Assembly: GCA_016787805.1 (NCBI GenBank)
Contig: JAEUTY010000045.1
Coordinates: 1 to 64,000 of the forward strand
Reading direction: 5' to 3'
DNA: 64,000 nt
From: Flavobacterium sp.
Lineage (GTDB): Bacteria; Bacteroidota; Bacteroidia; Flavobacteriales; Flavobacteriaceae
The position numbers were made by a program, and so were the translations under genes. Below the pieces are notes generated by a model. It worked only from the letters and a program-made list of their open reading frames with translations. It did not search any database and was not told the DNA's origin. Each line of letters begins with the position of its first letter. Positions within the stretch are counted from its first letter, which is position 1. Positions 27,399 to 39,497 of the stretch are shown piece by piece.

Positions 27399-27423
27399 GT
27401 CATTGCGAGGAACGAAGCAATCT
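27399..27423 (-). repeat. Solo copy of the GIY-YIG cassette end repeat
   Basis: GTCATTGCGAGG-AACGA-AGCAATCT on the plus strand: the 32-nt terminal repeat of the cassette at 37070 minus two internal AGG/CGA triplets and the last base. It begins 1 nt beyond the methyltransferase ATG. Confidence 0.75.
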
Positions 27424-36319: not shown

Positions 36320-36826
36320 TTACTTTCTCATGAATTTCATCAGCAATTGAGCCATCCAGTTGTCTTTGTATTCGGTAATTTTGTCCAAGACATTGTCGGC
36401 TTGCAACACAAAATCATACAGTTTATTGGTTTGATCCACAAAATGGCGTTCTTCAGCTGTGTTATCCGCACTAATTGACGAAACTTCTTTCAACACTTTC
36501 AATGCAGGTTTGATTTCACGTTTACTACGTTCTCTCGAAATTTTTACGGCCAATTCGTCTAAGTCTTTTTCGGCAGTAAAAAACTCGCGGCGTTCACCTG
36601 CCTTGTATTCTTTGTACACAATTCCCCAATCCATCAAAGCGCGCAAATTCATTGAAGCATTTCCTCTCGAAATCTGCAATTCGTCCATAATGTCTTCCAT
36701 CGAAACGGCCTCGTGCGACACCATCAACAACGCGTGAATCTGCGCCATGGTTTTGTTAATTCCCCATTGACTGCCGAGCGCGCCCCAAGTTTGTACGAAT
36801 TTATTTTTAGCTTCTTTGTAGTCCAT
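36320..36826 (-). CDS. GbsR/MarR-family transcription regulator
   Basis: The 168-residue product is a winged-helix regulator of the GbsR subgroup: TWGALGSQWGINKTMAQIHALL (about 13-34), SMEDIMDELQISRGNASMNLRAL as helix-turn-helix (about 41-63) and WGIVYKEYKAGERREFFTAEKDL as wing (about 65-87), followed by a long helical dimerisation region. Its gene heads a five-gene minus-strand operon. The promoter at 36855-36885 has an inverted repeat over its minus-33 part, and the same repeat precedes the next gene, so autoregulation and control of the operon are likely. The inducer is unknown. Confidence 0.88.
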   Translation of the reverse strand: MDYKEAKNKFVQTWGALGSQWGINKTMAQIHALLMVSHEAVSMEDIMDELQISRGNASMNLRALMDWGIVYKEYKAGERREFFTAEKDLDELAVKISRERSKREIKPALKVLKEVSSISADNTAEERHFVDQTNKLYDFVLQADNVLDKITEYKDNWMAQLLMKFMRK

Positions 36827-36916: not shown

Positions 36917-37046
36917 CCCAATTGCAGAAAAAATGAGGTTTTATTGAAACAAAGTATAGCAATTGGGTCAGGCTTTCCGCTCTATCTTTTGTTCCATTGC
37001 ATTGCACAAAAGGATGCCGCTGCAATCCTTAACGCATTAGTAATTC
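36917..37046. repeat. Structured intergenic element beside the GIY-YIG cassette
   Basis: CCCAATTGC (36917-36925) pairs with GCAATTGGG (36959-36967), and CTTTTGT with ACAAAAG further on. GGCTTTCCGCTCTATC and GATGCCGCTGCAATCCTTAACG resemble words of other intergenic repeats in this window. No gene is supported in 36902-37069. Confidence 0.45.
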
Positions 37047-37069
37047 TAATGAACTTTTGTAATGAAACG

Positions 37070-37101
37070 GTCATTGCGAGGAGGAACGACGAAGCAATCT
37101 C
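37070..37101 (+). repeat. Left inverted repeat of the GIY-YIG cassette
   Basis: A 32-bp element; also has weak internal symmetry ATTGC ... GCAAT. Exact inverse of 37403-37434. Confidence 0.95.
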
Positions 37102-37106
37102 CCCAA

Positions 37107-37400
37107 TTAACCCTGTATGTCATCAAACAAATCCTTCCACTCCGAATTGAAATCATTAATAAGTTTCAGTTTTTTTGCTCTCGAACCCGCCTTTAATTGT
37201 TTTTCACGTGCAATGGCATCCACAATACTTTCAAATTGCTCATAATAAACTAATTTACATAAATTATACCTTGCAGAAAATGAGTCTTCATATCTTTTCT
37301 CTTTATGTTCTACAATTCGTTTCGGTAAATTAGATGTTACTCCAATGTACAAAGTAGTATTGTTGTTATTAGTTACTATGTAAATAAAGCCTTGTTTCAT
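37107..37400 (-). CDS. GIY-YIG endonuclease-domain protein (URI/UPF0213-like)
   Basis: A 97-residue product that is one GIY-YIG domain: GFIYIVTNNNNTTLYIGVTS carries the paired GIY (as FIYIV) and YIG motifs, followed by NLPKRIVEHK (catalytic-region Arg and His), the Glu in YYEQFESIVDAIAREKQLK (metal ligand) and the C-terminal KLINDFNSEWKDL. ATG at 37400 directly follows the right repeat; a TTG frame extension of 10 codons would be encoded by the repeat itself. Such small single-domain proteins are widespread but of unknown target, unlike UvrC, which is far larger. No own promoter is visible, so expression may come from read-through of the M3 peptidase gene. Confidence 0.9.
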   Translation of the reverse strand: MKQGFIYIVTNNNNTTLYIGVTSNLPKRIVEHKEKRYEDSFSARYNLCKLVYYEQFESIVDAIAREKQLKAGSRAKKLKLINDFNSEWKDLFDDIQG

Positions 37401-37402
37401 TT

Positions 37403-37434
37403 GAGATTGCTTCGTCGTTCCTCCTCGCAATGAC
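37403..37434 (-). repeat. Right inverted repeat of the GIY-YIG cassette
   Basis: Exact reverse complement of 37070-37101; it ends 2 nt before the stop codon of the M3 peptidase gene. Confidence 0.95.
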
Positions 37435-37436
37435 TG

Positions 37437-39467
37437 TTAGGGTAGCAATCCCGCTCTTTTCAACAAAGCATCAACCGTTGGCTCGTGCCCTCTAAAACGT
37501 TTGTACAATTCCATGGGCAACTCAGTTCCACCTTTGGAAAGTACATTGTCTTTGAATTTAGTCGCCACTTCTTTGTTAAAAATACCTTGCTCTTCAAAAT
37601 AAGCAAACGCATCAGCATCCAATACTTCGGCCCATTTGTAACTGTAATATCCTGAAGAATAGCCACCTTGAAAAATATGCGAAAACGACACGCTCATACA
37701 ATTCTCTTCCACGTCAGGGTACAAAGTGGCGATTTCCATGGCTTGTTTTTCAAACACTTTGATGTCGGTAATCGCATTCGGATTGTTACTGTGGTACGCC
37801 ATATCCAAAATACCAAAACTCAACTGACGCAAGGTTGCCATTCCTTCCAAAAAACTCGCGCTTTCTTTAATTTTTTCTACATAGTGCTGTGGAATAATCT
37901 CGCCAGTTTCGTAATGATGCGCAAACAACGCCAACGCTTCGGGTTGGTAACACCAATTTTCCATGACTTGGCTAGGCAATTCTACAAAATCCCAAAAAAC
38001 GGAAGTACCCGACAAACTTGGATACGTTGTGTTGGCCAACATGCCGTGAAGTGCGTGTCCAAATTCATGGAACAAAGTAGTCACTTCGTTAAAAGTTAAC
38101 AATGATGGTTTTGTAGCTGTTGGTGGTGTAAAATTGCAAACAATTGATACGTGTGGTCGTTCGTTAACACCATCCTTAATGTATTGTGGTTTGAACGATG
38201 TCATCCAAGCGCCGTTGCGTTTTCCTTTTCTAGGGAAGAAATCAGAGTAGAAAACAGCCACTAAATTTCCTTCAAAGTCCAATACTTCAAAAGTTTGCAC
38301 ATCTTCGTGGTATTTGTCGATGTTGAAGACTTCTTTGAAGGTAATTCCGAATAATTTTTCGGCCACCGTAAAAGCACCGTTCAACACATTTTCGAGTTTG
38401 AAATAGGGTTTCAACAACTCGTCGTCCAAACTGTATAATTTTTGTTTTAATTTTTCCGAATAGTACGCACCATCCCATTTTTCCAATTGGTCAATGCCAT
38501 CGAGTTCTTGGGCAAAAGCAGTCAATTCTGCAAATTCTTTTTGGGCGGCTGGCTTGGCTTTTTCTAGCAAATCATTCAAAAACAATTTTACCTTATCTGG
38601 ATGTTGCGCCATTCGTTCTTCCAATACAAAATGCGAATGCGTTTCGTAACCCAACAATGTGGCACGCTCGTATCTAAGTTTTGCTATTTTAAGTGTAATT
38701 TCTTTATTGTCGTATTCGTTGTTTTGAAATGCTTTTTTTCCAGCAGCAATGGCCATTACTTTACGCAATTCGCGGTTGTCAACATAGGTTACAAACGGCA
38801 AATAACTCGGAAAATCAAGCGTAAAAATCCAACCTTCCAAGTTTTTGGATTGTGCTAACGAGTGTGCCATTTCTTTGGCTCCATCAGGCAAACCTTTTAA
38901 TTCGGCTTCGTTGGTAATGTGCAATTGGTAGTTGTTGGTTTCGGCCAACACATTTTCACCAAAAGTTAGTTTTAATTTGGCCAATTCAGTATCGATTTCG
39001 CGCAAACGTGCTTTTTTATCTTCAGGAAGTAATGCTCCGTTTCTAGCAAAACTTTTGTATTTTTTATCCAATAAAGTGGCTTGTTCTGGCGTCAAATTCA
39101 AATTGGCTTTTTGATCGTGAACGGCTTTTACTCGTTTGAATAAATCTTCGTTTAAAGCAATATCATTACTAAAAGCAGTCAATAAAGGCGATACTTCTTG
39201 GGCAATTTTTTGCATTTCATCGCAGGTTTCGGCTGAGTTCAAGTTGAAGAAAATCGATGATAACCGATCGAGTTCTTGTCCTGCGAAATCCAAGGCAACG
39301 ATTGTATTTTCAAAAGTAGGTGCTTCCGAATTGGTTGTTATTGCATCGATTTCGGCTCTGGCTTTGGCTAAATTGGTTTCAAAAGCAGGTTGGTAATCGT
39401 TTATTTTGATTTGCGAAAAAGGCGCAGTATTGTGTTTGGTTTGAAATGTTTGAGTTAAAATTTTCAT
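37437..39467 (-). CDS. dcp: M3-family oligopeptidase / peptidyl-dipeptidase Dcp-like
   Basis: A zinc metallopeptidase that degrades short peptides in the cytoplasm. ATG at 39467 (MKILTQTF) gives 676 residues; three codons further upstream are not needed. The M3 signature TLFHEFGHALHGML holds the zinc site HExxH at about residue 465, with the third ligand in SQVMENWC about 28 residues later. N-terminal helical part (APTFENTIVALDFAG, a Dcp/OpdA-typical block) and the C-terminal AGYYSYKWAEVLDADAFAYF-like block (here SSGYYSYKWAEVLDADAF) are present. Dcp and OpdA cannot be separated with certainty by eye. The 3' end abuts the GIY-YIG cassette. Confidence 0.9.
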   Translation of the reverse strand: MKILTQTFQTKHNTAPFSQIKINDYQPAFETNLAKARAEIDAITTNSEAPTFENTIVALDFAGQELDRLSSIFFNLNSAETCDEMQKIAQEVSPLLTAFSNDIALNEDLFKRVKAVHDQKANLNLTPEQATLLDKKYKSFARNGALLPEDKKARLREIDTELAKLKLTFGENVLAETNNYQLHITNEAELKGLPDGAKEMAHSLAQSKNLEGWIFTLDFPSYLPFVTYVDNRELRKVMAIAAGKKAFQNNEYDNKEITLKIAKLRYERATLLGYETHSHFVLEERMAQHPDKVKLFLNDLLEKAKPAAQKEFAELTAFAQELDGIDQLEKWDGAYYSEKLKQKLYSLDDELLKPYFKLENVLNGAFTVAEKLFGITFKEVFNIDKYHEDVQTFEVLDFEGNLVAVFYSDFFPRKGKRNGAWMTSFKPQYIKDGVNERPHVSIVCNFTPPTATKPSLLTFNEVTTLFHEFGHALHGMLANTTYPSLSGTSVFWDFVELPSQVMENWCYQPEALALFAHHYETGEIIPQHYVEKIKESASFLEGMATLRQLSFGILDMAYHSNNPNAITDIKVFEKQAMEIATLYPDVEENCMSVSFSHIFQGGYSSGYYSYKWAEVLDADAFAYFEEQGIFNKEVATKFKDNVLSKGGTELPMELYKRFRGHEPTVDALLKRAGLLP

Positions 39468-39497
39468 TGCTCGCAAAGGCGCAAAGGCGCAAAGTTT
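39465..39497. repeat. CGCAAAGG tandem phrase
   Basis: GCTCGCAAAGGCGCAAAGGC and GCAAAG directly upstream of the Dcp-like start: about three copies of CGCAAAGG. A related phrase GCCACAAAGGCACGAAGCC is found at 27450-27475. Confidence 0.5.

Follow-up and report, generated by a model that had tools for sequence, protein, structure and literature searches.

The window, that is, the whole stretch of DNA analysed (64,000 nucleotides from a Flavobacterium sp.), contained a small GIY-YIG nuclease gene enclosed by two repeats, which was located directly behind the gene of an M3-family peptidase. The repeats, which formed the arms of this cassette, were exact reverse complements of 32 nt at 37070-37101 and 37403-37434 (plus-strand coordinates), and could be extended to 37066-37101 and 37403-37438 with one mismatch (36 nt, 97%). 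The unit spanning both arms was 365 bp. The arm-to-gene gap was 5 nt on the 37070-37101 side, where the gene stopped, and 2 nt on the 37403-37434 side, where its ATG lay, and the stop codon of the peptidase gene (37437-37439) was 2 nt outside the right arm. The exact ends, the GIY-YIG gene alone between them at 5 and 2 nt and the position 2 nt behind the peptidase stop had all been claimed in the original prediction and were confirmed. The features of the region were as follows.

36320..36826, minus strand: MarR-like regulator gene (Pfam), which adjoined the peptidase gene without a cassette in seven relatives
36962..37042, minus strand: Flavo-1 RNA (RF01705; 51.9 bits, gathering score 42), in the gap separating the cassette from the next gene
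37070..37101, plus strand: REP-like repeat, left cassette end, with the GTC tag outward, a 5-bp ATTGC/GCAAT stem and a 16-nt purine-rich loop
37107..37400, minus strand: GIY-YIG nuclease gene, 97 aa, single domain (ORF, Pfam, alignment, model and fold match)
37403..37434, minus strand: REP-like repeat, right cassette end, exact reverse complement of the left repeat
37437..39476, minus strand: M3-family peptidase gene (dcp-like), directly upstream of the nuclease gene (ORF as listed, from TTG; Pfam Peptidase_M3)
27399..27422, plus strand: solo REP of the cassette-arm family, short-loop form (full-pattern match)

The GIY-YIG ORF was the only sizeable one lying wholly between the arms; a 68-aa mechanical ORF on the opposite strand overlapped one cassette end. 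With up to 3 mismatches allowed, the window contained the 28-nt core of the arm only at the two cassette ends, and 100 dinucleotide shuffles gave no match, which, together with the same gene-repeat pairing in many genomes, ruled out chance or an assembly artefact. Since the region upstream of the nuclease gene consisted of the repeat and the peptidase gene only, same-strand read-through from the peptidase gene is likely and could express the nuclease. On the side of the MarR-like gene, the cassette was directly adjoined by the Flavo-1 RNA.

The GIY-YIG protein

The nuclease ORF ran on the minus strand from an ATG at 37400 to a stop at 37107-37109 and encoded 97 aa. The ORF list has it begin at a TTG within the repeat, giving 107 aa, but the alignment of relatives fitted the ATG start instead. 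The protein matched the GIY-YIG family of Pfam with an E value of 1.6e-15; the gene enclosed in the cassette was GIY-YIG and not a HUH tyrosine transposase. Y7, Y18, G20, R28, H32, E54, E66 and other residues were invariant in the alignment of the cassette protein with 26 relatives, and these presumably include the catalytic residues known in general for the GIY-YIG family. The REKQLKAG motif was likewise invariant across all 27 aligned sequences.

The AlphaFold2 model of the 97-aa protein was compact and of high confidence (pLDDT 94.2). Among its fold matches the GIY-YIG protein 1zg2 ranked first (E 7e-4); Slx1 chains came next (E 0.01-0.14), then the GIY-YIG domain of UvrC (E 0.17 and up). 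The fold matches were thus headed by GIY-YIG nucleases, the branched-DNA nuclease Slx1 included, with E below 0.001 for 1zg2 only. A sequence-profile search against solved structures gave 1zg2 (E 4.7e-5) and 1ywl (E 0.018) as the nearest, and phmmer with the single cassette protein against solved structures gave no useful match. The nearest solved structures were therefore those of UPF0213-type small GIY-YIG proteins (PDB 1zg2 and 1ywl), both annotated as hypothetical proteins and listed without a target.

Only one close copy of the nuclease gene existed in the window genome, which was the cassette's own. Three further GIY-YIG matches in this genome were distant (53, 36 and 29% identity), and two of the three had internal stop codons. 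A distant GIY-YIG copy with two internal stops was seen on contig C2 of the window genome (L255, 79842-80090), with a cupin gene some 1.7 kb away.

The repeat family and the enzyme clade

The cassette arms belonged to a family of dispersed palindromic REP-like repeats with the plan GTC-stem-loop-stem-C. The looser pattern TCATTGCG-N(4-34)-GCAATC gave 22 matches in the window genome vs 0 for the reversed control, and 19 of the 22 fitted the full GTC-stem-GA...stem-C form. Within the fetched flanks the repeats of this genome were solo, the cassette pair excepted. The cassette ends were of a long-loop form, of which the genome had one other exact 28-nt copy, on contig C23. Compared with the short-loop repeat at 27399-27422, the long-loop repeat at 37070-37099 had 3 more bases on either side of the loop, as though the loop had been symmetrically lengthened.

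Two sets of loci were used for the association with the enzyme. One consisted of the best 80 of 378 loci, chosen by protein similarity alone, and the other of 39 same-genus loci, which were all same-genus clade matches minus the window's own (clade cut-off in the genus: best E at or below 1.6e-33, before a gap to 1e-27). The sets shared 10 loci and made 110 non-redundant loci with the window; association and stem-form counts include duplicates within and across sets, and orientation was recounted without duplicates. When the repeat arm was scanned within 300 bp with 1 mismatch allowed, it was found near the gene at 76/80 loci (55 on both sides) and at 39/39 same-genus loci (31 on both sides). 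The comparison genes were 43 other GIY-YIG genes, namely 40 from the upper non-clade list, of which they are a sample, and the 3 of the window genome; the arm was near 5/43 of them and on both sides of none, which ruled out repeat proximity as a general trait of small GIY-YIG genes. Genus genes of intermediate similarity, counted apart, had the arm in one of six cases.

The arm density near the gene was 7.09 and 5.88 per kb in the 80- and 39-locus sets, respectively, vs 0.42 and 0.43 far from it, and the reversed-arm control gave 0 near and 1 and 2 far. The arm background around the dcp and cupin control genes was 0 and 0.010 per kb. The median number of repeats was 10.5 in the 36 genus genomes with the clade (range 0-52) vs 1.0 in the 162 without it (range 0-48), a difference with a Mann-Whitney p of 6.5e-12 over the 198 genomes, kinship ignored. 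At least 10 repeats were present in 19 of the 162 genomes without the clade, and one genome with the clade gene (G039) had 0 full repeats by the strict pattern. The association of the enzyme clade with the repeat is specific. The original prediction had named, as an observation that would speak against it, genes of this type mostly lying without such repeats; the repeat was absent at only 4/80 and 0/39 loci. That genes of this enzyme group adjoin this kind of repeat in many other bacteria suggests that the enzyme acts on it and is the likely partner of the repeat family.

Stem-forming GTC-stem-GA...stem-C repeats numbered 400, and those with the reversed stem 13, over 120 loci that included 10 duplicates; without the duplicate loci, 375 stem-forming repeats were left. 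The base before GTC was C in 146/245 and T in 58/245 repeats of the 80 loci, and the window copies read GGTC and AGTC. For the stem covariation test, candidates were chosen by the tag and loop letters only. The stem was perfect in 133 of the 199 candidate repeats, and 22 compensated stem changes were observed vs 3.2 expected if the arms varied independently; uncompensated departures made up 66/88, many of them at the outermost pair. By this covariation, the repeat has evolved in the manner of a hairpin. The computed folds of five single repeats were weak (-1.7 to -4.3 kcal/mol), one of them folding otherwise, and the window arm, at -1.7 kcal/mol, did no better than shuffles. Computed folding of single repeats thus gave no strong intrinsic hairpin, and since this folding was weak, the protein would have to stabilise the hairpin.

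The tags of neighbouring repeats within 120 bp (110 non-redundant loci) pointed outward in 66 cases, inward in 36 and in the same direction in 49. Outward neighbours were 15/20 in G199, 8/8 in G204, 3/3 on one contig of G024 and 0/1 in G201. In G199, a 1.1-Mb MAG, mostly tight tag-outward pairs were seen (e.g., C37:130-199), many of them 6-8 nt apart and with partners of different subtypes. Of the non-redundant loci, 50 had a full repeat on either side of the gene at a distance of up to 400 bp; there the tags were outward in 20, inward in 13 and in the same direction in 17. The tight outward two-repeat cassette is one arrangement among several.

Homologues also existed outside the genus. The class of an alphaproteobacterial MAG (locus L076) was searched over 289 genomes, and 81 of them had a homologue at E 1e-12 or better. 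Fifty alphaproteobacterial loci were then read, 30 from the search and 20 from three multi-copy genomes, and these lots partly overlapped in place. Stem-loop repeats of the same plan were near 27/50 homologues, flanking 15 of them and lying to one side of 12; the other 23/50 had none by a test that misses 5-bp stems. There were 57 such repeats in 29.4 kb near the genes vs 12 in 59.0 kb far from them, with 2 and 3 for the control; the hits at L275, L280 and L307 looked like chance. Several homologues had adjoining repeats with stems of 7 bp or more. The stems differed between loci, and left equalled right in 7/15 loci vs 5/210 between-locus comparisons. Tight outward-tagged pairs like that of the window were present at L273, L276, L277, L285, L288 and L291. 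One alphaproteobacterial genome (G328, L293-L302) contained ten GIY-YIG homologues, of which 7/10 lay near repeats, the stem being mostly particular to the locus.

The insertion site and movement of the nuclease gene

The peptidase gene (dcp) was matched in 100/101 same-genus genomes. The best 30 dcp loci were fetched, one being the window, which left 29 relatives read of the 99 with a dcp match. The GIY-YIG match was absent from the fetched 1.5 kb behind dcp in 29/29 relatives, and the repeat arm was absent from the whole fetched dcp stretch in 29/29. In seven of them (L144, L149, L153, L154, L158, L159 and L164) the peptidase gene was followed directly by the MarR-like gene with no cassette, and other relatives had a different gene behind it. 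Among the Flavo-1 RNA matches at these seven empty-site loci none reached the gathering score, and at a lax threshold only L164 had one, of 29 bits, at the same junction. As a common marker of the empty site this RNA was only weakly borne out, L158 and L164 looking alike by eye and L158 having no match.

An ancestral cassette at the dcp site was ruled out within the sample (0/29 relatives read), and these comparisons support the cassette as a lineage-specific insertion at the peptidase site. Presence of the cassette at the same locus in all relatives, with the divergence of core genes, had been named as an observation against the original prediction; at dcp the gene was in 0/29. A recent insertion or gene conversion had also been suggested there, and 'recent' held only relative to the species sampled, the closest dcp being 89% identical over a 157-aa piece. 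No window neighbour gene was found to be shared with the other clade loci. A second filled and empty case was L225, the same place as L013, with a cassette between herA and the cupin gene. Thirty cupin loci were fetched from the 42 genomes with a cupin match, and the 29 others showed no cassette; herA was present at 16/30, and the herA-cupin junction of L247 was about 8 nt.

Among the genus genomes with the clade, 34/36 had a single copy, one had two and one had three. A neighbour gene was shared by 31/35 pairs of at least 90% identity, 39/92 pairs of 85-90% and 13/1038 pairs of 65-70%, so that the place is mostly inherited among close copies and is lost with growing distance. REP/RAYT genes are typically single-copy and vertical in habit, and the cassette clade gene likewise was mostly single-copy and kept in place. 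Single copies in an inherited place resemble the logic of REP/RAYT more than that of an active transposon. The best reading is that the nuclease gene rarely relocates. The freely mobile or homing unit of the original prediction was not borne out by these counts, and its likeness to REP/RAYT logic stood, with the nuclease gene tied to dispersed palindromic repeats and the ends of the same family as the solo copies.

The cassette may instead be an autonomous mobile element, a minimal GIY-YIG transposon in which the nuclease would excise the 365-bp unit at both end repeats and insert it elsewhere. The exactly matching ends with the enzyme gene alone between them agree with this, and so do the absence of the gene here in 29/29 relatives read and the herA-cupin case. 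The genes of L010 and L011 were 92% identical at the DNA level with unrelated flanks, and the tight outward-tagged pairs extended to Alphaproteobacteria (e.g., L276 and L288). However, near-identical copies at several sites, the hallmark of transposons and IS elements, were lacking, the window genome having a single close copy and nearly all genus genomes with the clade one copy, and close copies mostly kept their neighbours. No target-site duplication was seen by eye at the junctions, and the outward pair was missing at 30/50 non-redundant two-sided loci. The seeming move of L053/L055 was rejected as a clean transfer, since L055 kept the letters of the hsdR start and looked like a local deletion. 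An autonomous element is unlikely in view of these points, though it fares best among the alternatives.

Proposed action and related systems

The cassette is probably a site-specific GIY-YIG nuclease gene placed between two outward-tagged copies of its own putative target, a REP-like hairpin. We infer both cleavage of the repeat and a transfer step. The nuclease would bind the repeat as a single-stranded hairpin, for example on a strand exposed in replication or DNA uptake, and would cut it there. The cutting may help the repeats to spread or relocate, or may limit the exchange of repeat-carrying DNA. Now and then, a segment with a repeat at each end, which in this case carries the nuclease gene, could be joined elsewhere. 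The system would work like REP/RAYT, with a GIY-YIG enzyme replacing the HUH tyrosine enzyme.

The Ssn family, reportedly described in Nat Commun in 2025, is said to consist of GIY-YIG nucleases which cut single-stranded DNA at a cognate repeat, and to have been shown first in Neisseria, with the NTS repeat. We take the cassette nuclease to belong most likely to this family, a placement based on this description. As in that description, the protein was a small, single-domain GIY-YIG (97 aa), and a palindromic repeat, presumably the cognate one, occurred both beside the gene and scattered over the genome. As a possible difference, the window gene lay between two such repeats at a site particular to its lineage, and its activity is a predicted one.

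Neisseria Ssn reportedly modulates transformation, and the window system could be a device of control or defence, cutting repeat-carrying incoming single-stranded DNA so as to modulate natural transformation or aid restriction-modification. This would be compatible with a nuclease gene between copies of its own target. Type I restriction genes adjoined 24/110 non-redundant loci (L053 among them), the hsdR start lying within 200 bp at 13 of the 24 (Pfam). The other 86/110 loci, the window included, had no hsd match in the fetched flank, however, and a primary role of this kind is somewhat less probable than an autonomous element.

The least probable alternative, which we regard as quite doubtful, is that the repeats are passive terminators or recombination points at gene ends and the GIY-YIG gene spreads by homologous recombination with no enzyme action: 15/19 full repeats of the window genome were outside ORFs of at least 120 aa, the cassette lay just behind a stop codon and 32 nt could serve short-homology recombination, but no repeat arm stood in the dcp stretch fetched from the 29 relatives, and it is left unexplained why this clade, and not other small same-genus GIY-YIG genes, sits among repeats and why distant homologues sit among repeats of different stems, often matching within a locus.

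A nuclease acting on its own repeats, the preferred reading, can be compared with known REP systems. Di Nocera et al. (2013, PMC3733652) describe CGTC-tagged REPs of Bacteroidetes and alpha-Proteobacteria with the order tag, stem, loop, stem and tail, in which the tag is CGTC (or TGTC/CCTC), the stem is 8-9 bp and starts with AT, the loop is 4-5 nt and tag-outward dimers are common. There, these REPs are apparently without a dedicated transposase, and the mobilising agent is left open. The window repeat followed this plan with a tag, an AT-first stem, a loop, a stem and a C tail, and had 19 dispersed full copies. Unlike those REPs, reported with an 8-9 bp stem and no associated transposase gene, it had a 5-bp stem, a 16-nt loop and an associated GIY-YIG gene. 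An enzyme gene flanked by dispersed palindromes also resembles REP/RAYT and REPINs as covered in PMC3733652. Unlike RAYT, which is a HUH tyrosine enzyme, the cassette enzyme had the GIY-YIG fold.

Among the matches listed for open-licence PMC, there was no paper on a pairing of GIY-YIG with REP, RAYT, dRS3 or a single-stranded nuclease, and no title on bacterial repeats for the arm letters CATTGCGAG. The one paper joining GIY-YIG and extragenic palindrome was unrelated in the passages concerned. A discrete cassette with relatives lacking it, together with a quantified association with CGTC-like REPs in two phyla, may be new.

On a wider and rather improbable view, CGTC-like REPs across phyla would have a dedicated GIY-YIG nuclease, the enclosing pair would be a minimal self-relocating, transposon-like unit, and enzyme and stem would be co-evolving. 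Being present in both Bacteroidota and Alphaproteobacteria, the association points to a candidate enzyme for the CGTC REPs. The window offers a natural construct of 365 bp together with the cassette-free site of its relatives, and enzymes with many natural repeat stems would show how the small GIY-YIG fold reads DNA hairpins.
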